In this document: piece by piece, positions 12,298 to 58,786 of the stretch
Layout: the number at the start of each line of letters is the position of its first letter
How positions within the stretch are numbered: position 1 is the first letter of the stretch
Source of the DNA: Enterococcus dongliensis
Lineage (GTDB): Bacteria; Bacillota; Bacilli; Lactobacillales; Enterococcaceae
Reading direction: 5' to 3'
Assembly: GCF_005405225.1 (NCBI RefSeq)
Contig: NZ_BJDQ01000013.1
Coordinates: 1-58,786, forward strand
Length of the DNA stretch: 58,786 bases
Position numbers and translations under genes: made by a program
Notes under the pieces: generated by a model
The model's input: only the letters and a program-made list of their open reading frames with translations
Told to the model about the DNA's origin: nothing
Databases searched by the model: none

Positions 12298-12474
12298 ATT
12301 CTTTCACCTCGTTTTTTTAATTATATTATACTTCCATTTTTTTTTAAAGAAAAAACGAACGTACGTTTGAATTGAACTAACTTTATCAGATTTTCCCTCT
12401 ATTTTTTTCTATATATGAATTATCAAGGAATTAAAATCTGATTTCAACTACAAATATCAGAAAGGTTGATCACA

Positions 12475-13617
12475 ATGGCAGAACCAAAGATGATAAAAAA
12501 AGGAAAGTGGAAACTGAGGACCCGCTATAAAGACCCGCTCACAAACGAATGGAGCGAAAAGAACTTTACTGGTTCTACTCGTGCAGAAGTTAAAGAAAAA
12601 GAAACAGATTTTCTTTCTAAATTAATGAACGGTGAAAACATGAAGAAAGTCGGACTCGTTACTTTTTTTAATCAATACATCGATACATTTAAGCGCGGTA
12701 AAATCAGTCCTGGCCGAATCGCAAAATACGAACTAGCTGCCAAGTACGTTGAAGAATATTTTGGAAAGAAAAAAACATTGAATAGTCTTTCGAAATATAA
12801 TTACCAAAGCTATCTCAATTGGTTAGCTTCCACCGACGGACCGAATAAACAAGGATTATCGAAAACGACAGTCGCTGATCAGCACACGATATTTAAAACA
12901 GCAATCCTTGAAGCAATCGATATGGGATATTTACGTGCAAATCCTACCCGTAATGTCAAAATAACGGGTCGTCAGGCGACTCATTCAACCGAGACGACTC
13001 TTTCCCAAGAAGATGCGGAAAAGCTCAAAAACACGATTTTAGAGGCTACAGATACAGCGGCCAAATATTTTTGTTTAGTTCAGTTCTATACTGGCGCAAG
13101 ATACCAGGAAGTCGCTGCTTTAAAATGGGATTCTGATATTGATGAAAAAAATGAACAAATCATTATTGATGAGGCGTTTAAATATGATGGTGGTATCTAT
13201 CGATTCGGGATAACCAAAACCAATGCAGGTTATCGAAAAATTGATGTGCATAGGCATCTCTTTAAATATCTAAAAAAATGGAAAACTGTCCAAGCTCAAG
13301 ATATTATATCTGGCAAACTGCTCAATCCACACAACTTATTATTTGTCACGAATAACACTTACCCTATTTCAAATTCAGCAATCAACAAGTATTTAAAATA
13401 CTGGTGTGATAAAGCAGAAGTTCCAAGAATCCGAAGTCATAGTTTTCGCCATATCCGATCAGACTTCTTTACCTTATCTGAAACTGATCCGATTTATATC
13501 AAAGACCAATTAGGTCATGCAAGTATTCAACAATCGTATGAATATGCAAGCGCAACTGAAGAAAGACGCCAAAAAAATAAGCAAAAATTCGAGTCCTTTT
13601 TTGAAGAAATTCTCTAA
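12475..13617 (+). CDS. int: Prophage tyrosine integrase
   Basis: The ATG at 12475 is preferred over an in-frame TTG nine bases earlier because AGAAAGG lies nine bases upstream. The 380-residue enzyme has an N-terminal arm-binding domain (GKWKLRTRYKDPLTNEW), a core-binding domain, and the catalytic domain with TGARYQEVAALKW (Arg), HSFRHIRSDFF (His-x-x-Arg), and LGHASIQQSYEYAS (His and Tyr nucleophile). It inserts and, with an excision factor, removes the phage at the tRNA-Leu 3' end located just downstream. Confidence 0.95.
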   Translation: MAEPKMIKKGKWKLRTRYKDPLTNEWSEKNFTGSTRAEVKEKETDFLSKLMNGENMKKVGLVTFFNQYIDTFKRGKISPGRIAKYELAAKYVEEYFGKKKTLNSLSKYNYQSYLNWLASTDGPNKQGLSKTTVADQHTIFKTAILEAIDMGYLRANPTRNVKITGRQATHSTETTLSQEDAEKLKNTILEATDTAAKYFCLVQFYTGARYQEVAALKWDSDIDEKNEQIIIDEAFKYDGGIYRFGITKTNAGYRKIDVHRHLFKYLKKWKTVQAQDIISGKLLNPHNLLFVTNNTYPISNSAINKYLKYWCDKAEVPRIRSHSFRHIRSDFFTLSETDPIYIKDQLGHASIQQSYEYASATEERRQKNKQKFESFFEEIL

Positions 13618-13660
13618 CAAAAAAACTTTTCGTGGGTTTTTCGTGGGGGAAATTAAAAAA

Positions 13661-13700
13661 ACAACCTACGAACACTGTTATATCAACGTTTGTAGGTTGT
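13661..13700 (-). terminator. Terminator downstream of tRNA-Leu
   Basis: ACAACCTACGAAC (13661-13673) pairs with GTTTGTAGGTTGT (13688-13700) with one G-U pair. On the minus strand it is followed by seven T, ideal for ending the tRNA transcript. It lies on the phage side of the tRNA, so the phage probably supplies it. Confidence 0.88.
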
Positions 13701-13707
13701 ATCTGTA

Positions 13708-13791
13708 TGCAGCGAATGGGATTTGAACCCACACGGGATTTCTCCCACATGACCCTCAATCATGCTTGTCTACCAATTCCAACACCACCGC
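13708..13791 (-). tRNA. tRNA-Leu(GAG), prophage attachment gene
   Basis: A full cloverleaf of 84 bases folds on the minus strand: acceptor GCGGTGG/TCGCTGC, D-arm TTG/CAA, anticodon stem CATGA/TCATG with loop TTGAGGG (anticodon GAG), a long variable arm with GGGA/TCCC as in leucine tRNAs, and a T-arm GTGGG/CCCAT around TTCAAAT. CCA is not encoded. Three G-U pairs occur in the acceptor stem. The prophage integrase lies next to the 3' half, which is therefore the probable attachment core. Confidence 0.95.
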
Positions 13792-48788: not shown

Positions 48789-49645
48789 TATTCGCTCAAC
48801 TCCTCAAAACGATCCAAGGTGTAGCGTCCCAGTTTTCCTTGTCGCAATTCAAGAATCAGCATCTCACTTGCACGCTCATAATCATCTCTAAATCCACGTT
48901 TTTCAGAAATCAACATTAACAACTCAGGTAATTCCTTAAACAAATCATCCTCGGTTAATTTATAACGCTCTTTTAGCTGTTCTGGATAGAAACGGCTGAA
49001 CATTTCTAATTCATACAAAGCTAAATCATCTAAATGCAATAAATCATCTTTGATTGCGCCGGTCAATGCCAATTTTTTCCCCACTGCTGGATCTTCAAAT
49101 TTAGGCCACAATATTCCTGGAGTATCAAGCAATTCCAATTGCGAACCAAAACGTAGCCATTGCTGTCCTTTGGTGACTCCGGGGCGATTGCCAGTGCTTG
49201 CGACTTTCTTACCAGCTAAATGATTCAATAAAGTGGATTTTCCCACATTAGGAATCCCTAGGACCATTGCTCGGATCGCCCGTGGTTTTATCCCTCGCTC
49301 ATTATCACGAGCAATTTTTTCTGCTAATACTTTCTTACTTGCAGGAATAATCTGCTTCACACTTTTATCACTTTTAGCTGTTAAGGCCAACACAGGATAG
49401 CCCTGCTCCCGAAAATAATTGACCCATAAATTGGTTTGATTCGGATCTGCTAAATCAGCTTTATTTAATAAAATCAATCGCGGTTTTTGCTGTACGATCT
49501 GATCCAACATTGGATTACGAGAAGACAGCGGCAATCTCGCATCAATCAATTCAAAAACAATATCGACAAATTTTAATTTTTCAGAAACTTCCCGCCTAGC
49601 TTTCGCCATATGACCAGGAAACCATTGAATTGACATCTTATTCAT
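48788..49645 (-). CDS. rbgA: Ribosome biogenesis GTPase RbgA (YlqF)
   Basis: A 285-residue circularly permuted GTPase: G4 NKAD at 61-64 precedes G1 GIPNVGKST at 130-138 and G3 DTPG at 174-177. IQWFPGHMAKARRE at the start and a C-terminal helical region complete the YlqF signature. It acts late in 50S subunit assembly. GGAGTTGC lies before the ATG. It is the first gene of the rbgA-rnhB-dprA-topA block. Confidence 0.97.
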   Translation of the reverse strand: MNKMSIQWFPGHMAKARREVSEKLKFVDIVFELIDARLPLSSRNPMLDQIVQQKPRLILLNKADLADPNQTNLWVNYFREQGYPVLALTAKSDKSVKQIIPASKKVLAEKIARDNERGIKPRAIRAMVLGIPNVGKSTLLNHLAGKKVASTGNRPGVTKGQQWLRFGSQLELLDTPGILWPKFEDPAVGKKLALTGAIKDDLLHLDDLALYELEMFSRFYPEQLKERYKLTEDDLFKELPELLMLISEKRGFRDDYERASEMLILELRQGKLGRYTLDRFEELSE

Positions 49646-50033
49646 GCAACTCCATTCATATCAAGGTTTTAAATGCCTTATTTATTTTTATACTAACAAA
49701 ACTGCTTGGAAGAAATATGGGATAGGATCATTTATCATCGAAATAAGGATTATTCCATCTGTTATCTTATATCCAAGTATCTTTCGCATTTTACCATAAA
49801 TTGACAAGAGATTAAACACTAGGTATGTTCCCATTTGCTCTATCAATAGAGCTTTTTTGAAAATCTGTGCTGCTTTCATTGATTAAATAATCACGTAGTT
49901 TATCTAGTTAACGACCTTCCTTGCATTATTGTTAGGTGTTTGAAAGATGATTCGCTCGTATTCCTTATTTGATTCATGTAAATTCCTTATAGGAAATAAA
50001 ATAGCTCGCTAGTAGCCTACAGGAGGATTTTAA
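49646..50033. other. Intergenic region with a short promoter-terminator unit
   Basis: Between divergent rbgA and the YxeA-like gene I find no convincing gene. On the plus strand TTGACA (49801-49806) and TATGTT (49824-49829) are spaced 17 bases apart, and eight bases later GCTCTA/TAGAGC (49837-49852) is followed by six T, a tiny terminator. A 63-codon minus-strand frame here lacks a ribosome site. AGGAGG before 50034 belongs to the next gene. Confidence 0.5.
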
Positions 50034-50426
50034 ATGAAGAAACTATTTGGCGGAGTTGCTCTGTTATTGTTGATTATCAGTGGGGTGTTTGGATATAAAT
50101 ACTACTCTGAGACCTATATCACCCACACTGAGTATGCTAAAACGCCTGCAAAAATTCCTGCAAAGACCCAAACGAAGGACGCTCGTGGAAAAATAGTAGA
50201 AAATATGTATTCTTACAAATACAAAATGACTTTTTTTGACAAGGAGGGCGTATCACATAAAAGAGAAACTGACATTCATGGAGAGCAGGTTTCACCTTTA
50301 CCAACAAAAACTATTGTCAAGATCAAAACAAGTAAAAAAAGAGCTACTGCCCCAGAAGTCATATCAGAATCAGAAGTTCCTACATCTATCTTAGAAAAAT
50401 TAAATGCTGAATCAGGAGGAAAGTAA
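50034..50426 (+). CDS. YxeA-like DUF1093 protein
   Basis: A 130-residue protein with an N-terminal signal or anchor (LFGGVALLLLIISGVFGYKY) and a small extracytoplasmic beta-rich domain containing TEYAKTPAKIPAKTQTKDAR and YSYKYKMTFFDKEG, the pattern of the DUF1093/YxeA family. There is no lipobox. CAGGAGGATTTTAA is a strong ribosome site. It is followed without gap by a small membrane-protein gene. The family function is unknown. Confidence 0.85.
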   Translation: MKKLFGGVALLLLIISGVFGYKYYSETYITHTEYAKTPAKIPAKTQTKDARGKIVENMYSYKYKMTFFDKEGVSHKRETDIHGEQVSPLPTKTIVKIKTSKKRATAPEVISESEVPTSILEKLNAESGGK

Positions 50427-50639
50427 ATGAATGAAATCAAAACAGCCTTTGAAATGAATCCCCTCTTCACAATCGGGTGTCTTTTATTTATGATTGGTAT
50501 TTCAGTCTTTTGTTTTGGGAAAAAATTTTTCCTATTTCGATTATTTTTTGGTGATAGAAGCATGTTCTCACAGATTTTTTGGGGACTTATCTTTTCCGGG
50601 ATTGGTCTTTTGCTCATTCTGTTTTTCAAACAATTCTAA
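50427..50639 (+). CDS. Small membrane protein downstream of the YxeA-like gene
   Basis: The 70-residue protein has two hydrophobic helices (PLFTIGCLLFMIGISVFCFG at residues 11-30, and IFWGLIFSGIGLLLILFF near the end). AGGAGGAAAGTAA precedes the start and overlaps the end of the upstream gene, so the two are an operon, ended by a long hairpin. No family was recognised. Confidence 0.75.
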   Translation: MNEIKTAFEMNPLFTIGCLLFMIGISVFCFGKKFFLFRLFFGDRSMFSQIFWGLIFSGIGLLLILFFKQF

Positions 50640-50705
50640 TGCTAGACTACGACCTGTAATCACTTTCTTCAAATAAAACTGATTCTATAAAATCGGAACC
50701 AAATA

Positions 50706-50755
50706 AAAACACTTCTATCTAAATTCAGAAAAATGAATTAAGATAGAAGTGTTTT
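50706..50755. terminator. Long-stem terminator
   Basis: A 22-bp stem with one mismatch (AAAACACTTCTATCT... 50706-50727 with 50734-50755) and a six-base loop, with A and T runs outside. It ends the YxeA-like operon. The following 175 bases to 50930 hold no gene I can support. Confidence 0.9.
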
Positions 50756-50930
50756 TATATAGAGTTAAGAGTGACTAATCCAATAGAAATGAAGAAAGAA
50801 GATCCAACAAAAATTGGGACTTCGTTATCAAATAACTCTCTGTCAACTTACCGCTAAAAAGGAGACTGACAACAGTTTCATCAGTAATCATCACCTTAGT
50901 TAATTCAACACTTTCCTGTAAAAATATATT

Positions 50931-51251
50931 TTATTTTTTTAATCCAAATATCTCTTTTGCCATTGAAAAAGCGGTCCAAGCTTTTGGCCAACCTGCATAA
51001 AAAGCTAGTTGAGTAATCAATGCCGTTACTTCCTCTTTTGTTACCCCATTTTCTTTGGCCATTTTTAAATGTGCCTCTAATTGAGGTGCTCCCATCGCTA
51101 ATAACGCTGAACAAGTGATCATACTCCTATCATGAGGGGATAATTCATTTTCCCTTGACCAGACTTCCCCAAAAAGAACATCATCATTCAAAGCTGCAAA
51201 TTGTGGCGCAAATTCTCCAAGCTGTTCTCTTCCAGCAGTTTGTTTTTTCAT
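50931..51251 (-). CDS. Carboxymuconolactone decarboxylase family protein
   Basis: The 106-residue protein is a single CMD domain: EVWSRENELSPHDRSMITCS (residues 29-48), EAHLKMAKENGVTKEEV and AFYAGWPKAWTAFSMAKEIF. The cysteine-pair motif of AhpD-type peroxidase partners is absent; only one Cys occurs in the helix. It lies 12 bases after the cupin gene, a common association in which the pair may act on small organic metabolites or peroxides. Substrate is unknown. Confidence 0.88.
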   Translation of the reverse strand: MKKQTAGREQLGEFAPQFAALNDDVLFGEVWSRENELSPHDRSMITCSALLAMGAPQLEAHLKMAKENGVTKEEVTALITQLAFYAGWPKAWTAFSMAKEIFGLKK

Positions 51252-53022: not shown

Positions 53023-54345
53023 CTAAGCTTTCGCAGTTTTTAAATCAACTTGTTGGCGAGTGTGACGTTTAGGGAATAGCACTAATTTTCCTTCTAAAAT
53101 ACTTAAAGTAATCACACTACCAATAACTAAGAAAATCAAGAAAATATATCCATGAACAGAATAATTAGTGATACCAGAATACAAAGCACCAATGTTACAG
53201 CCTTTAGCCAAACGTGCTCCTACACCCATGAATAACCCGCCTAACGCATAAGTCGCACTATCCTTAAGATGAAAATTAAATTTAAAATGGAACCGTCCCG
53301 CTAATAAGAAAGCGACTAGCGAACCAAGGACAATCCCCAGATTACGGACTGACGATCCATCAACTAGAAAACCACCTTGCTGGATTTTCAAATTAATCGC
53401 TGCAAATACAGGGTCATTTAATGAAAACCCTAAGGCATGCAGCAACTGAGTTCCTTGCAGGGTAAAGGCCGAAGTGACTCCCCATGATTTGCCCGTGGTG
53501 ATAATGATAAAAGCGGCAATGATTGATGTTAATAAAGCGGCTGTTGTAAATGACCAGCGTTGAATAAACAAGCGATGGTATAAGTTCACCTGTGTATTTG
53601 ATGTCTCTAATGATTTTTCAAATTCAGCATAAGTCGTCTGATTGATTGCTAAGCCAGCTTGTTGTCGATGTTTTTGGTAAGCACGGATCACTAAGTATAA
53701 AATCCCTAAAAAAACAAGTAAGAAAATAAATGAACCAATATAACCAAAATACGTCGGCAAGTAATACTCGCCACCAATCTTACCGATAGCAGAAGCATCT
53801 AATTTTCCGCTCAACCACAACCCTAACGGTGAACCAATAATGAAAAATGGCAAGGTAATAATGGCATGTCCTTCACCTTCACCAAAGTCAGTCAAAGTTC
53901 CAGAAGCACAACCGCCAGCTAACAACATGCCGCTACCGAAAATTGCTCCACCAATTATAGTTCCGATATTCGTGAGTTCTACCGATGCTGAGCCAGGAAT
54001 AATGGCTTGTTTAGCACTAGCCAAGTATGCTGGAACTGCTCCTTGACTAGCGGCCTGCCATTGAATACCTGTAGTCAAAAATGCTGTCACTCCCAATAAA
54101 ATCAATAGTGAAACAGCTAACTGACTATTGCCGCCATAAAAGAGGCTCTTGATTCCTCCCGCAAAACCAAAACGTGAGCGAGTGAAAACATACCCAATTG
54201 CCAGACCAGCAATTAAGAACACTGGTAACTCAACAGCTTGTGTTGAGGTAAAAAGACCGTAAGCAATAATTAAAACTAGAACGATTAGTGCATAATACGG
54301 TTGACGACTATCTAAATCATTTTCATCAAAATAAGTTTTTAACAT
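53023..54345 (-). CDS. YeeE/YedE-family thiosulfate or sulfur-compound transporter
   Basis: A 440-residue protein with about ten or more transmembrane helices arranged as two repeats. Each has a key cysteine: GGCASGT (Cys146) and AKGCNIGALYSG (Cys383), the conserved residues through which YeeE (TsuA) passes thiosulfate. A soluble loop around residues 225-262 separates the halves. GGAGGTC precedes the ATG. It is transcribed behind a T-box leader I read as methionine-specific, and lies beside a sulfonate-type ABC importer. Thiosulfate, sulfite or polysulfide are possible substrates. Confidence 0.92.
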   Translation of the reverse strand: MLKTYFDENDLDSRQPYYALIVLVLIIAYGLFTSTQAVELPVFLIAGLAIGYVFTRSRFGFAGGIKSLFYGGNSQLAVSLLILLGVTAFLTTGIQWQAASQGAVPAYLASAKQAIIPGSASVELTNIGTIIGGAIFGSGMLLAGGCASGTLTDFGEGEGHAIITLPFFIIGSPLGLWLSGKLDASAIGKIGGEYYLPTYFGYIGSFIFLLVFLGILYLVIRAYQKHRQQAGLAINQTTYAEFEKSLETSNTQVNLYHRLFIQRWSFTTAALLTSIIAAFIIITTGKSWGVTSAFTLQGTQLLHALGFSLNDPVFAAINLKIQQGGFLVDGSSVRNLGIVLGSLVAFLLAGRFHFKFNFHLKDSATYALGGLFMGVGARLAKGCNIGALYSGITNYSVHGYIFLIFLVIGSVITLSILEGKLVLFPKRHTRQQVDLKTAKA

Positions 54346-54425
54346 ATAAAGACCTCCATAAATTTATCTGCTTATAAAAACACTCGAATTGACTCATTAA
54401 ATAAAAACAAGTTATATTAGATACA

Positions 54426-54458
54426 TTTCAACTTGAAATAATACTGATTCAGTTGAAA
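54426..54458. promoter_or_regulatory. Palindromes between T-box and transporter gene
   Basis: TTTCAACTTGAAA (54426-54438) is a perfect 6-1-6 palindrome, and TTCAGTTGAA-type sequence follows at 54448-54457. Together they also make an 8-bp inverted repeat, TTTCAACT and AGTTGAAA. A second regulator may act here. Confidence 0.45.
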
Positions 54459-54480
54459 AAAAGTTTTTCTCACCTACTTT

Positions 54481-54764
54481 CTCGATAAAAAAATTCGCCC
54501 ATAGATCCATCTCTGAATCTAAGGACGAAGATTTTTCTTCGTGTTACCACCTTAATTTAAATCACTTTCGCAAGTCATTCCTCTTCGGGTACAACATACC
54601 CTAGCTCGCTAACGGGAGCACCCGTTATTGTTTCACCGCAGCTTAACAATACGTATTATCCAAGACCATCTTCAATTATTCGATAAGATCGCTTTTCACC
54701 AGCCGCGACTCTCTAAACTTATCAAGTTAATCTACTCATCTTTTCATTTACTTTTAATTATATT
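54481..54764 (-). promoter_or_regulatory. T-box riboswitch, probably tRNA-Met specific
   Basis: On the minus strand the leader shows stem I with AGTAGA, AGAGAG and GGCTGGTGAAAA apical motifs (TCGC/GCGA stem), a specifier region reading TGAAG-ATG-G (ATG at 54669-54667), and the T-box AAGGTGGTAACACG (54553-54540). A terminator stem follows (TTCGTCCTTAGAT with ATCTATGGGCGAA) and seven T. The bulge TGGT should pair with a tRNA ending ACCA, fitting methionine tRNA. Uncharged tRNA would let transcription continue into the YeeE-type gene. Confidence 0.88.
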
Positions 54765-54770
54765 ATTAGA

Positions 54771-54799
54771 ATTATTATCCGAAAAACCTTTCCTGTCAA
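54771..54799 (-). promoter_or_regulatory. Promoter of the T-box leader
   Basis: TTGACA (54799-54794) lies 16-17 bases before TAATAA/AATAAT (54777-54771) on the minus strand. It shows the transporter gene is transcribed separately from the ABC importer genes upstream. Confidence 0.75.
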
Positions 54800-54852
54800 G
54801 AAGTTTTTTTGATTTTTTAACAGTCGTTACTTATTACTGCTGCTCATAGAGC

Positions 54853-55596
54853 TTATTTAAGTTGATCCAGCAGCATTCGTCGAAAAGAAAAATACTCTGA
54901 ATTATTGATCATCGTGTCAAAAGTACTTTTAAAATACGGATTGGTAACGGTTTGTTGCACCGTACCTGGTCTGCCATTCATAATAATGATATTCTGACCT
55001 AAGTACAGTGCCTCATCAATATCATGTGTGATGACGATGACACAATTACCCGTATTGGTCCATAATTCAAGTAAAATTTGGTGCATCTCATCACGAGTCA
55101 AATTATCTAGAGCACTAAAAGATTCATCCAACATCAAAATATCTGGCTGATTAATAAATTCTCGTGCAAGTGCCACGCGTTGTTTCAACCCGCCAGATAA
55201 TTCATAAACATAACTTGATTTAAATTTTTCCAAACCTGTTTCCTGTAGCAGTACTGCTAAACGCTGATTGATCTGTTGCTTAGGTACTTTACGCATACGC
55301 GGTCCAAAAGTAATATTTTGGGACACATTGAGCCATGGATAGAGCGCCATATCTTGAAAAACGATTCCACGTTGCCAACTGGCTTTTTGAATTGGTTGGT
55401 CATTCATTCGCAATTCACCAATTTGTGGTTTCAGGTAACCGGCAATTAAATTGAGTAATGTACTTTTACCAATACCAGAAGGTCCAATAATCACGTTGAT
55501 TGAGTTAGCTTCAAGTGTTAAATTGATGTTGTCAATTGATTGCGCACCACTACCAGCATACTGGTATCCTACATGCTTAATTTCTAATAATGGCAT
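54853..55596 (-). CDS. ABC importer ATPase (sulfonate/taurine/nitrate type)
   Basis: The 247-residue ATPase has Walker A GPSGIGKSTLL, the Q-loop in GIVFQDMALYPWL, signature LSGGLKQRVALAREF (with Leu in place of the more usual Gln) and Walker B DILMLDESFSALD. Its closest pattern is the SsuB/TauB group. It overlaps the binding-protein gene by one base. With the permease and lipoprotein it should import sulfonates or another sulfur compound, judging from the neighbours. Confidence 0.92.
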   Translation of the reverse strand: MPLLEIKHVGYQYAGSGAQSIDNINLTLEANSINVIIGPSGIGKSTLLNLIAGYLKPQIGELRMNDQPIQKASWQRGIVFQDMALYPWLNVSQNITFGPRMRKVPKQQINQRLAVLLQETGLEKFKSSYVYELSGGLKQRVALAREFINQPDILMLDESFSALDNLTRDEMHQILLELWTNTGNCVIVITHDIDEALYLGQNIIIMNGRPGTVQQTVTNPYFKSTFDTMINNSEYFSFRRMLLDQLK

Positions 55597-56597
55597 CAGC
55601 GTGTCTTCCCTTCTATAATAAATTGGGTATCGATGAATTGTTGAATCTGTTGCAGATTAGGTCGACTATTCAACGTTTGTCTTTGATACATGAATTGACT
55701 CGTTTGATAAAATTGTTTTGCAAATTCTGTATTCATAAATTGTACTAACTGATCACTTGGCAACCAGCTCGATGTTCCAATCTGCTGTTTGGCTTCATTT
55801 GAAGTGATATTCATCTGTTGTGCCGTTAACTGATAGATTTTCTGCGGCTGTTGCTGATAAAGAGTATGGGCAGTGCCTAACGTACTCAGAATCTGACGTA
55901 ATATTTCCGCATGTTGCTGAGCAAATTTGTTGGTAACTAAAGTCACATTAGCCGTCAGAGCACCTCGTTCTGCCAACTGATCGCTACTAACTAATGTAGT
56001 GCTTGCGTGTAAGCTATCCAGACTAGGTTGCCACGTATAAGCACCATCTATATCATCACGCTGCCATGCGGCAACGATTTCTGGCGTCTGCATATCCACC
56101 AATGTCACTTGATCAGTCAAATGTTGTTGTTGTAAATACATCATCAGACTGTAATGAGAGGTAGAAGCAAAAGGGGTAGCTATTTTTAGGCCACGTAAAT
56201 CTTGAGCTTGTCGAATGCCAAGCTTTTTTTTGACTACCAGAGCTTCATTATTTCCAATCACATCATTGATCCAAACTAATTTTGCCGGAATTGCTGCTGC
56301 CATCGCTACTACGGCGTTTGTATCACCCATCGTAGCTAAATCAACACTATTAGACAACAATGCTTTATTCGCATCGACACCAGAATCAAAAGTAATGTAT
56401 TTAACTTTATAACCATTTTGAGCACAAGCTTTTTTTAATATTTTCATTTGATGTGTAGCCGCCACATCATTGGGCACCCGTAAAATACCAATACGGATTA
56501 CTTTCATCGACGTTGTTGATTTTTTAGTAGAAGTACATGCTGTTAACGTCAGGGTTACGCCAACGATGACCAAAAATCGTAAAAATTTCTTCAACAT
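55596..56597 (-). CDS. ABC importer substrate-binding lipoprotein (SsuA/NMT1-like)
   Basis: The 333-residue protein has a lipoprotein signal with lipobox LTAC (Cys21) and a periplasmic-binding fold of the SsuA/TauA/NMT1 type: RIGILRVPNDVAATHQMKIL, DLATMGDTNAVVAMAAAIPA and GLKIATPFASTSHYSLMMYL. Family members bind sulfonates, taurine, nitrate or thiamine precursors. The start overlaps the permease stop by seven bases. The Gln-rich C-terminal half (TLYQQQPQKIYQLTAQQ) is notable. Confidence 0.92.
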   Translation of the reverse strand: MLKKFLRFLVIVGVTLTLTACTSTKKSTTSMKVIRIGILRVPNDVAATHQMKILKKACAQNGYKVKYITFDSGVDANKALLSNSVDLATMGDTNAVVAMAAAIPAKLVWINDVIGNNEALVVKKKLGIRQAQDLRGLKIATPFASTSHYSLMMYLQQQHLTDQVTLVDMQTPEIVAAWQRDDIDGAYTWQPSLDSLHASTTLVSSDQLAERGALTANVTLVTNKFAQQHAEILRQILSTLGTAHTLYQQQPQKIYQLTAQQMNITSNEAKQQIGTSSWLPSDQLVQFMNTEFAKQFYQTSQFMYQRQTLNSRPNLQQIQQFIDTQFIIEGKTR

Positions 56598-57376
56598 TCT
56601 TTTTTACCACGCCAATGAACGATTCGGCAGGCCATTTCTCTTAATAACCAATCAATCAAAACTCCTGTGATTCCCAGCAAAATGATGCCGGCAAACATAA
56701 CATCACTTTTCAAATAGTGAGAGGAATCGATAATCATCCAGCCAACCCCGGAACTAGAAGCAATCATTTCAGCTGAAACAATCGTGGTGTATGCTACACC
56801 GACAGCAGATCGTAATCCAGTAAAAATATCAGGTAATGATGCGGGAAAGACGATATTGAAAAAGATCTGATGACGATTGGCGCCAAGTGACGCCGCACTT
56901 TGCAAGTACTCACTATCAATTCGTTGTACCGCATCAAAACAAGAAATATAAATCGGTGGCAGAGCCGCCCAAAACAACAACATAATTTTAGAGGATTCAC
57001 CGATACCCAACCATAAAATCAGCAACGTATAATAAGCTAGTGGTGGAATCGGCCGAATAAATTGAATCAATGGATCGACTATGGCATTTATCCAGCGTAC
57101 ATATCCACTGAGTAATCCTAATGGGATACCGATAAGTACCGCAAATAAAATTGCTACAAATAATCGACGCATGGTGATCCAATAATGAACATACAAAAGT
57201 GTACCACCGTAACCCGAACGATTAAGATCGATGAAAGTCTGACTAATTTTATCTAATGATGGCAGCAGTACTGCTGGTACAATCCTTAAATTGGTGGCGA
57301 CGATCCATGAGCCTAACAACACAGTGATCGTCATGACGCTGATCAATAAATAACGTAATTTAATACTTTTTTTCAC
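56591..57376 (-). CDS. ABC importer permease (SsuC/TauC-like)
   Basis: A 261-residue membrane protein with about six helices and the BPD permease EAA loop SAASLGANRHQIFFNIVFPA (roughly residues 160-180), which contacts the ATPase. It fits the SsuC/TauC class. It is the first intact gene of the importer operon and follows the reductase-rhodanese fragment by 57 bases. Confidence 0.92.
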   Translation of the reverse strand: MKKSIKLRYLLISVMTITVLLGSWIVATNLRIVPAVLLPSLDKISQTFIDLNRSGYGGTLLYVHYWITMRRLFVAILFAVLIGIPLGLLSGYVRWINAIVDPLIQFIRPIPPLAYYTLLILWLGIGESSKIMLLFWAALPPIYISCFDAVQRIDSEYLQSAASLGANRHQIFFNIVFPASLPDIFTGLRSAVGVAYTTIVSAEMIASSSGVGWMIIDSSHYLKSDVMFAGIILLGITGVLIDWLLREMACRIVHWRGKKEC

Positions 57377-57433: not shown

Positions 57434-58726
57434 TTAATCAAACCAATACGTATCGATGATCGACTCGCGTGGTTGTACTTGATCATTGAAATATTCATAT
57501 TCACAGATTGCCATAAATGAACCGGCAATATTGTAAACATTGGTGTAGCCTAAATTCATCAGTGCGCGTGCTACATTATAACTACGTTGACCGCTTAAGC
57601 AGTGAATATAAATTGGTTTATCTCGAGGAAATTCGTCTAAACGTTCACGAAATTCGCTCATAGGAATATTGATTGCACTTACGACGTGTCCTTTTGCATA
57701 TTCATCAGGTTCACGGACATCGATAATCAATTCATGCTGCTCCACTAATCTTCGTACTTGACTAGCTGAAATTTGGTAAAATTCTTCGTTTAAAATATTG
57801 GTTGCTACTAATCCAGCCATATTAACTGCATTTTTGGCTGTGCTGAACTTCGGCTGATAACACAGCTCCAGATTTTCCAAATCTTCCACATAATTGTGAT
57901 TAGTAATCATCGTGGCGATTACATCAATCTGTTTATCGACTCGACCTTCGCCAATTGCTTGAGCTCCTAAAATCTCTCCGGTAGGGTAGGCAAAAATTAG
58001 TTTGAAAAATAATGGCTTGGCTCTAGGCATCAATAAAACTTTATCCTTTGGAATCACCATCACGGTTCGATAATCAATGTGATTTTTTTGACAATTTTTT
58101 TCTGTTAAACCAGTGGCGGCAACATTCATTTCAAATACCGGTACACATTGTGAACCAATCACACCACGATTATGCGTTTGTCTTCCATAAATGTGATCCG
58201 CGGCTTGACGGGCTTCCATCTGTGCTGGAAAGGCTAAGCTTAACTTCTGCCGTTGATGAGTTTGGCGATTGATCACTTCCACTGCATCACCGACAGCATA
58301 AATATGCGGGATATTCGTTCGAAAATTTTGATCGACTTGAATACCACCTGTACTACCAATTTTAATCCCAACGGCTTCTGCTAACCTAGTATCAGGAGTC
58401 ACTCCCAACGCTAATACTACAGCGCCTGTTTTTAATTGACGCCCAGATTTCAGTGTCACATTTGTTTCACTGATAGCTGTTACCGTATCCCCAACAATCA
58501 CATTGACTTTATGATTTAGCAGCGTTCTCTGAATGATTTGCGCCATGTCATAATCAATCGTATTGAGAACGTGATCCTCTCCTTCTACTAAATTAACATT
58601 AAAACCACCATTGACCAGATTCTCTACAGTTTCGATACCGATGAATCCACCGCCAACTACGGTGACATCAGTGATAGAGTGATTTGTCAGATAATCGTAT
58701 AATGACTTGATTGGTGTTAGTATCAA
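57434..58726 (-). pseudogene. CoA-disulfide reductase/rhodanese fusion lacking its N-terminal FAD domain
   Basis: The 430-residue remnant starts at the NAD-binding domain (VTVVGGGFIGIETVENLVNG), continues through the FAD-contact IPHIYAVGDAVEVINRQTHQ and the dimerisation domain, and ends with a rhodanese domain whose active Cys is in IHCLSGQRS (Cys376). Complete family members are about 550 residues; the first 110-130, with the FAD-binding glycine motif and the redox-active Cys, are missing. An in-frame stop lies just upstream and only a TTG could start it. The homology ends close to 58726, so an insertion or rearrangement is likely. It should once have handled persulfides or CoA disulfides. 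Confidence 0.8.
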
Positions 58727-58786
58727 ATCTTAGACAACTTTTCGTAGAGACAGAAATAAATTAAACTTATCTACGAGAGGATGGAT
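58727..58786. other. Foreign-looking sequence at the truncation point
   Basis: These last 60 bases do not continue the reductase reading frame. They contain an inverted repeat TCGTAGA/TCTACGA and GAGAGGATGGAT at the edge. It could be the end of an insertion sequence or other junction, but I recognise no specific element. Confidence 0.4.

Follow-up and report, generated by a model that had tools for sequence, protein, structure and literature searches.

A methionine-type T-box leader precedes a YeeE/YedE-family sulfur transporter gene in Enterococcus dongliensis and appears to have moved together with it

The window is the whole 58,786-nucleotide stretch of Enterococcus dongliensis DNA analyzed here, and it carries a putative sulfur cluster on its minus strand. 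Read in the direction of transcription, the cluster starts with a CoADR-rhodanese (persulfide-reductase-like) gene present only from about residue 138 on (57434..58711; Pyr_redox_2 and Rhodanese domains), followed by genes for a tauC-like permease (56591..57376; TauC model 197.1 bits, cut-off 342), a tauA/ssuA-like substrate-binding lipoprotein (55596..56597; taurine_ABC_bnd 166.5 bits, cut-off 304.25) and a tauB-like ABC ATPase (54853..55596; TauB model 225.9 bits, cut-off 357). The last gene, yeeE (53023..54345, minus strand), encodes a YeeE/YedE-like sulfur transporter of 440 amino acids (PF04143, E 1.4e-54). The contig ends in a repeat (58708..58786) with DNA matches on seven other contigs of the same assembly (C2, C11, C12, C15, C16, C21 and C22; 96-100% identical over about 72-80 bases, several at contig starts or ends) and in genomes of the same genus, and we infer that it represents an IS-like end. 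Two RNA matches at gathering level occur in the window, a T-box and a tRNA-Leu. Beside the tRNA-Leu(gag) lies a phage-type integrase-like ORF (12466-13791), and repressor-like and phage-like ORFs are found at 1-9 kb, all named by reading and probably parts of an element integrated at tRNA-Leu(gag).

The T-box leader is placed on the minus strand between the tauB-like gene and yeeE, in the stretch 54346-54852 where the initial annotation had listed a promoter, stem I motifs, an ATG specifier, a TGGT bulge and a terminator, all of which are present. The Rfam covariance model RF00230 matches positions 54756-54518 over its full length (model 1-219 of 219) with 106.6 bits and an E value of 1.4e-22, compared with a gathering score of 93, and this score rules out a chance match. 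The specifier motif taken alone occurs at chance level (one found, 0.8 expected), and the complete element is above chance. The fold of the whole leader (54518..54756) has a z score of -3.9, with none of 200 shuffles equally stable. By its sequence the leader is a real methionine T-box with an unusual target gene.

Upstream of the leader a promoter located by consensus scan (54771..54799, minus strand) is composed of a -35 element TTGACA (54799-54794), a 17-base spacer and a -10 element AATAAT (54776-54771). It agrees with the consensus in 11 of 12 positions in a scan that overall is at chance level (three found, 2.3 expected), and both hexamers with the 17-base spacing recur before the yeeE T-boxes of two Loigolactobacillus clusters, supporting the proposal that the leader has its own promoter. 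Stem I (54662..54742, minus strand; RF00230 and folding) contains the lower helix AAGA/UCUU, a helix beside the specifier loop, the AGUA...GAA motif and AGAGA. Folded alone it is no more stable than shuffles (z -1.3; 24 of 200 as stable), and its pairing is instead seen in an alignment of three sequences only, in which 96.8% of the cells are paired and seven of 21 pairs are changed on both sides. Four of the five pairing measures are equalled by one shuffle in 500 and the fifth, further pair types, by 10 in 500; sliding the structure along the alignment drops the pairing to 27-46%. The helix that ends just before GAA, beside the specifier loop, has changes on both sides in four of its five pairs across the three species, and this supports the specifier register.

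The antiterminator (54521..54553, minus strand; RF00230 and folding) reads AAGG[UGGUAAC]ACGAAG...CUUCGUCCUU, with the UGGU bulge at 54549-54546, and its AAGGTGGTAACACG is identical across three species, the window's host and two Loigolactobacillus species. Its folding energy of -8.5 kcal/mol is no better than that of shuffles (z -1.2; 26 of 200 as stable). The intrinsic terminator found by folding (54487..54529, minus strand) is formed by a stem (54529-54494) and a run of seven T (54493-54487), and the hairpin of -19.9 kcal/mol has a z score of -5.5 with none of 200 shuffles as stable. The segment CUUCGUCCUU is common to both structures, and the T-box bulge stands in the competing antiterminator. 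A strong terminator is a shared property of all five cluster leaders from the window and the two Loigolactobacillus species (z -5.0 to -7.2). A simple consensus scan for terminator-like sites does not list the window terminator, an omission that an internal mismatch may explain. In the alignment with relatives the terminator gives no covariation signal (171 of 500 shuffles reach the observed level), and the apparent reason is a different folding register in one relative. A second candidate hairpin between the terminator and yeeE was rejected, since 63 of 200 shuffles are as stable.

The specifier codon is AUG (54667..54669, minus strand) in the context GAA-G-AUG-G (54673-54666), which the RF00230 alignment places on GAA-a-uuc-a with no indel alongside. 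The alignment could have placed another codon there, and the methionine codon read in the initial annotation thus stands. The nearest homologous leaders, the two Loigolactobacillus yeeE T-boxes, share the AUG specifier and the UGGU bulge; in all, AUG is aligned in four of four leaders of both Loigolactobacillus clusters, and AUG with UGGU is seen in five cluster leaders from three species. The bulge had been argued to require a tRNA with A73, and this is borne out by the tRNAs of the host itself in a survey that scanned 12 of 30 tRNA loci: three CAU tRNA types carry A73, with U73 in tRNA-Cys and G73 in tRNA-Asp. The cysE-cysS T-box of the same genome has a UGC specifier and a UGGA bulge.

The covariance register was calibrated on 10 of the 17 T-boxes of the host genome (a total that includes the yeeE leader), namely those before synthetase genes or cysE-cysS, with codons read by eye and gene names resting on reading of the ORFs. 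The specifier column of the model is cognate in six of the 10 (Val, Leu, Pro, Thr, Gly and Cys), is shifted by one base in three (Phe, Ser and Ala) and gives an Asp codon before hisS in one, so the register alone leaves some doubt on AUG. The T-box might accordingly read another tRNA (Cys, Asp or Ile) or have its codon one base off, and a GAU (Asp) codon does lie one base upstream of AUG. This is nevertheless very improbable, as Cys or Asp specificity is rejected by the mismatch of UGGU to the U73 and G73 of the host tRNAs, the distance from GAA to the lower helix is five bases, the helix beside GAA covaries, and the same alignment, GAA-N-AUG-R, is common to the other Met-type T-boxes of the host, including those before met genes.

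Five such further Met-type T-boxes, each with GAA-N-AUG-R and UGGU, are present in the host genome, and four precede methionine genes. Three are placed, with names given by reading, before metQ-metN-like genes (L003), before a metQ-like gene followed by an msrA-like gene (L009) and before a MetE-like gene followed by an ABC ATPase gene (L013). The fourth (L012) stands before the O-acetylhomoserine sulfhydrylase gene metY (TIGR01326, 620.2 bits, cut-off 495.1) in the order hom-thrC-thrB-[T-box]-metY-metA, where the hom and thr names are by reading and the metA-family gene scores 397.1 bits, under its cut-off of 460.5. MetY is a sulfide-using enzyme, and in the host a step from sulfide to homocysteine therefore lies behind a Met T-box; sulfur delivered by YeeE could enter at this step.

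Other T-boxes show unusual features of their own. The fifth Met-type T-box (L006; GAA-A-AUG-G, UGGU) is ahead of a racemase-like gene (L172:6702-7463, G000:C8; PRK07475 model 237.2 bits, cut-off 231), an unusual target for a Met T-box. A His-type CAC T-box (L001, G000:C7:80769-80993) before an amino-acid ABC system named by reading has a UGGA bulge, in contrast with the host tRNA-His, which apparently has C73. In two Loigolactobacillus genomes, pairs of T-boxes about 0.7-0.9 kb apart (L042 in G020:C1 and L044 in G021:C69) are followed by an acetolactate-synthase-like ORF (by reading).

The only solved relatives found for the window YeeE are the Spirochaeta thermophila YeeE structures (PDB codes 6leo and 8k1r). 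The likeness to TsuA/YeeE lies in the PF04143 family and in the conserved counterparts of Cys91 and Cys293 (PMC11073785, PMC11582611); the window protein differs in its length of 440 amino acids rather than 330-350, in a glycine at one cysteine position and in the CoADR-rhodanese gene that neighbors yeeE in relatives. Residues C146 and C383 align with TsuA cysteines and are kept in each of the 16 aligned sequences, and in all 16 G60 replaces a cysteine of Escherichia coli TsuA that we take to be its third and that presumably corresponds to C22 of S. thermophila YeeE. The scores with two curated TsuA models are far below their cut-offs (65.4 bits against 400 and 50.1 against 645), and no TsuB/YeeD-like gene is present among the eight neighboring ORFs scanned (50.9-58.7 kb). 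The description of the protein as a thiosulfate-type channel thus holds for its PF04143 membership and fails on the TsuA scores and the third cysteine; for a YeeE clade that, by its sequence, appears to be without one TsuA cysteine, the name thiosulfate channel is too strong.

PmpA and PmpB each have one cysteine, matching Cys91 and Cys293, and proteins similar to them facilitate the uptake of zero-valent sulfur (PMC11582611). The window CoADR protein is 84% identical to residues 138-565 of the L. binensis protein, which has an FAD/NAD reductase and a C-terminal rhodanese domain and matches the CoA-persulfide reductase 8a56 and 3icr over residues 2/3-539, with 398.6 bits against the CoADR equivalog (below its cut-off of 578.8). 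The L. binensis protein thus shares the CoADR-type reductase and C-terminal rhodanese domain of 8a56 and 3icr, whereas the window copy is without the N-terminal part at the contig end. Enzymes of the CoADR-rhodanese type reduce persulfides and polysulfides to H2S (PMC7969121). The cysteine pattern, the findings on PmpA/PmpB and the adjacent CoADR-rhodanese favor sulfane sulfur (thiosulfate, polysulfide or zero-valent sulfur) as the probable substrate over thiosulfate specifically.

A different cargo is the most substantial alternative, though an unlikely one: the Met T-box would be genuine and the cargo of YeeE and the Tau-like ABC system an organic or other sulfur or selenium compound, so that methionine tRNA would be linked to another nutrient and not to inorganic sulfur. 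The best NCBIfam score belongs to the selenium-associated YedE/FdhT model (120.8 bits, cut-off 350), which outscores TsuA (65.4 bits) with neither above its cut-off, the one TsuA cysteine is missing in 16 of 16 sequences, and the neighboring genes resemble taurine/sulfonate ABC genes. Sulfane sulfur is preferred to such a cargo in view of the two TsuA cysteines that are kept, the sulfide-requiring metY-metA genes that the host carries under a Met T-box, and the position of CoADR next to yeeE in other lineages. The last is shown by 27 distinct non-Loigolactobacillus loci whose YeeE reaches 40% identity or more; yeeE lies directly before a same-strand CoADR gene in 26 of them, and the remaining locus stops at its contig end.

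These loci belong to a comparison of gene order covering 37 loci, 17 YeeE loci from named records and 20 stretches picked for yeeE-family and/or tauA-like matches, of which 33 are distinct (four are duplicate contigs). The 26 yeeE-CoADR loci comprise 14 from the named records and 12 picked for close yeeE and tauA matches. tauC-tauA-tauB follow CoADR in 21 of the 26, making yeeE-CoADR/rhodanese-tauCAB the usual order, and six loci have a YeeE paralogue of about 30% identity further upstream. A second YeeE paralogue (about 30% identity) is observed next to or in the cluster in L019, L030, L032, L033, L183, L186 and L193. The nearest of the named-record proteins are those of Loigolactobacillus binensis (87% identity) and L. 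zhaoyuanensis (80%), and among the compared clusters, yeeE in final position and T-boxes at the cluster are confined to these two and the window. The yeeE T-boxes of L. binensis (88.8 bits) and L. zhaoyuanensis (98.6 bits) both have GAA-G-AUG-G and UGGU, and at the other end of the cluster each species has a second Met-type T-box before CoADR (77.4 bits with GAA-A-AUG-A and 86.1 bits with GAA-G-AUG-G, respectively). Three of these four T-boxes are under the Rfam gathering score, and a cmscan at gathering level is too insensitive for such loci, having missed both T-boxes of one Loigolactobacillus cluster (L018) and one of two in the other (L029).

A more sensitive covariance model of Met stem I (R1, 18 sequences) searched over 545 kb gives five matches at E <= 1, one in the window and two in each Loigolactobacillus cluster, all within the training set, and none in the 31 other cluster loci. 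As a control on T-box loci not used in training, R1 recovers 27 of 32 at E <= 1 (25 at E <= 0.01) in a smaller search whose E values are not strictly comparable. R1 also finds none in another 24 loci of the YeeE family taken with short flanks, several of which are duplicates of those 31 cluster loci or paralogues of about 30% identity. The T-box core motif is absent within 700 bases upstream of the first gene in 29 of 29 other loci, with a pattern that is itself incomplete (one version missed two of 30 T-box loci and another one of 17). A T-box as a general trait of yeeE operons is unsupported by these searches. A divergent LysR-like ORF is seen by eye in 17 of the 29 other loci, and Pfam assigns all 10 that were tested to LysR; a LysR gene beside the operon does not prove that it regulates the operon. 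Two stretches on the minus strand, in L067 (2682-2837) and L018 (2324-2509), weakly resemble the Vibrio V_AS7 antisense RNA family, with scores below gathering; the latter overlaps the CoADR coding start, and the similarity probably reflects protein-coding DNA.

The distribution of the genes suggests horizontal movement. TopA, encoded on the same contig, is 95-98% identical to that of three same-genus genomes, 89% to a fourth, and 74 and 73% to two Loigolactobacillus genomes, showing that the host of the window is not Loigolactobacillus. Compared with this 74% for TopA, YeeE and the CoADR part are 87 and 84% identical to their L. binensis counterparts. The YeeE protein is found in one of 20 genomes of the genus, that of the window itself, and in none of the other 19, five of which have weakly matching PF04143 proteins of 351-359 amino acids; in the Loigolactobacillus set, yeeE is present in two of eight genomes. 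A DNA search with 46.0-58.8 kb of the window, with 15 candidates scored per genome, matched 46.0-49.6 kb in 19 of 19 genus genomes and 50.9-52.8 kb in part of them, and the sulfur cluster gave only pieces of at most about 120 bases.

The switch follows the same pattern as the gene. The window yeeE T-box shares 85 and 79% identity with its two Loigolactobacillus counterparts and at most 59% with the other Met T-boxes of the host, and in a T-box tree, which is rough given the short sequences, the yeeE T-boxes group with Loigolactobacillus T-boxes before metN-like and other ABC genes (support 0.91). As the T-box and YeeE are both closest to Loigolactobacillus, gene and switch appear, on sequence comparison, to have moved together between Loigolactobacillus and the lineage of the window, in either direction. 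Two further ideas were rejected. The two T-boxes of a cluster are not recent twins, the CoADR T-boxes being only 52-54% identical to the yeeE T-boxes and neither CoADR T-box being among the other's eight nearest, and plasmid-borne spread is opposed by matches below 60% identity in 107 of 107 matched plasmid records (the 20 listed at 29%).

The absence of YeeE from the other 19 genus genomes and the short pieces of cluster DNA found there would also fit contamination or chimerism of the contig, or a transferred remnant in decay whose T-box is dead in its host. The CoADR gene is cut at the repeat, and the adjoining cmd-cupin-LysR DNA sits elsewhere in relatives. At the junction (49640-50940), core genes (topA...ylqF) lie beside cmd-cupin-LysR, and in the same-genus genomes that match both, the two are on separate contigs or far apart, indicating a rearrangement or an assembly join; the assembly is 74% complete and may contain joins. 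Host-genus DNA is nonetheless present on both sides of the cluster, as cmd-cupin-LysR on one and as the repeat shared with other host contigs and same-genus genomes on the other, and the T-box, promoter, terminator and yeeE frame are intact. Contamination of the contig is unlikely, and there is little probability for this alternative as a whole; joint movement of T-box and yeeE into or out of the lineage is preferred. Since the repeat meets CoADR at about residue 138, the reductase may be broken in the host, with yeeE and its T-box intact, and the missing N-terminal part is not found elsewhere in the assembly (other matches are at most 36% identical). The sulfur reduction step may thus be broken in this genome.

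The switch itself has well described counterparts. Met T-boxes with an ATG specifier are placed before methionine biosynthesis and transport genes in Lactobacillales (Wels 2008, PMC2494555; PMC3771891), and six methionine-specific T-boxes are described in the single strain L. paracasei FAM18149 (PMC6004538). The Met T-boxes of the host resemble these in specifier and met-gene targets. The targets given in the available text of these sources are amino-acid ABC systems and met enzymes, with no YeeE/YedE or CoADR among them. The met leader of Staphylococcus aureus is a Met T-box with a mutually exclusive terminator and antiterminator, as in the window, and prefers the initiator tRNA (PMC3771891), whereas the window leader could be read by the elongator or the initiator. 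The Cys T-boxes of Clostridium perfringens also control sulfur acquisition and assimilation genes (cysK, cysP1, cysP2 and ubiG), but differ in their TGC specifier and in targets for cyst(e)ine transport and cysteine synthesis; the thiosulfate and sulfite transporters of that organism are called uncharacterized in the accessible part of the same paper (PMC2940859). A search of open-licence literature gave no report combining T-box, methionine and YeeE, or T-box, methionine, taurine and thiosulfate, although older surveys may contain an earlier mention. The combination of T-box, thiosulfate and antitermination gave only the C. perfringens Cys T-boxes (PMC2940859) in that literature, and the term T-box is absent from the accessible part of PMC3616900. 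The switch is therefore of an ordinary type, and novelty appears to lie in its target gene and in the apparent joint movement of switch and gene across bacterial lineages.

Taken together, the locus is best explained, with good confidence for an argument built on sequence comparison, by a canonical antitermination Met T-box acting on yeeE, with sulfane sulfur directed to methionine and the T-box-yeeE unit moved jointly. By the established T-box mechanism, charged tRNA-Met would allow the terminator to form and turn yeeE off. Uncharged tRNA-Met, elongator or initiator, would pair its anticodon with AUG and its ACCA end with UGGU, and the tRNA-bound leader would adopt the antiterminator so that yeeE is transcribed. 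yeeE would in this way be tied directly to the charging of Met-tRNA, and the cell would probably import more sulfur when its methionine tRNA is empty. YeeE would import a sulfane-sulfur compound, thiosulfate, polysulfide or zero-valent sulfur, which the CoADR-rhodanese of the cluster would reduce to sulfide, and the sulfide would be converted to methionine by MetA-MetY and a MetE-like enzyme, which the host encodes behind Met T-boxes.

A bolder form of this proposal is put forward tentatively and is somewhat more likely to be wrong than right. It supposes that lactic acid bacteria have a full route, gated by methionine tRNA, by which sulfane sulfur from the environment becomes methionine, with a two-cysteine YeeE clade and a rhodanese persulfide reductase replacing TsuB and feeding MetA-MetY-MetE, a rewiring from LysR-type to Met T-box control in Loigolactobacillus, and passage of T-box-yeeE between genera with its specificity intact.

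T-boxes serve to predict transporter substrates, and the Met T-box described here would identify a YeeE/YedE transporter as a source of sulfur for methionine, together with, in two relatives, the persulfide reductase that partners it. This gives a direct, testable function to a gene cluster present in many Lactobacillales. The cluster also offers a compact example of regulatory rewiring, the same genes lying near LysR across many lineages and downstream of T-boxes in a single one, with an RNA switch apparently moving along with its gene.
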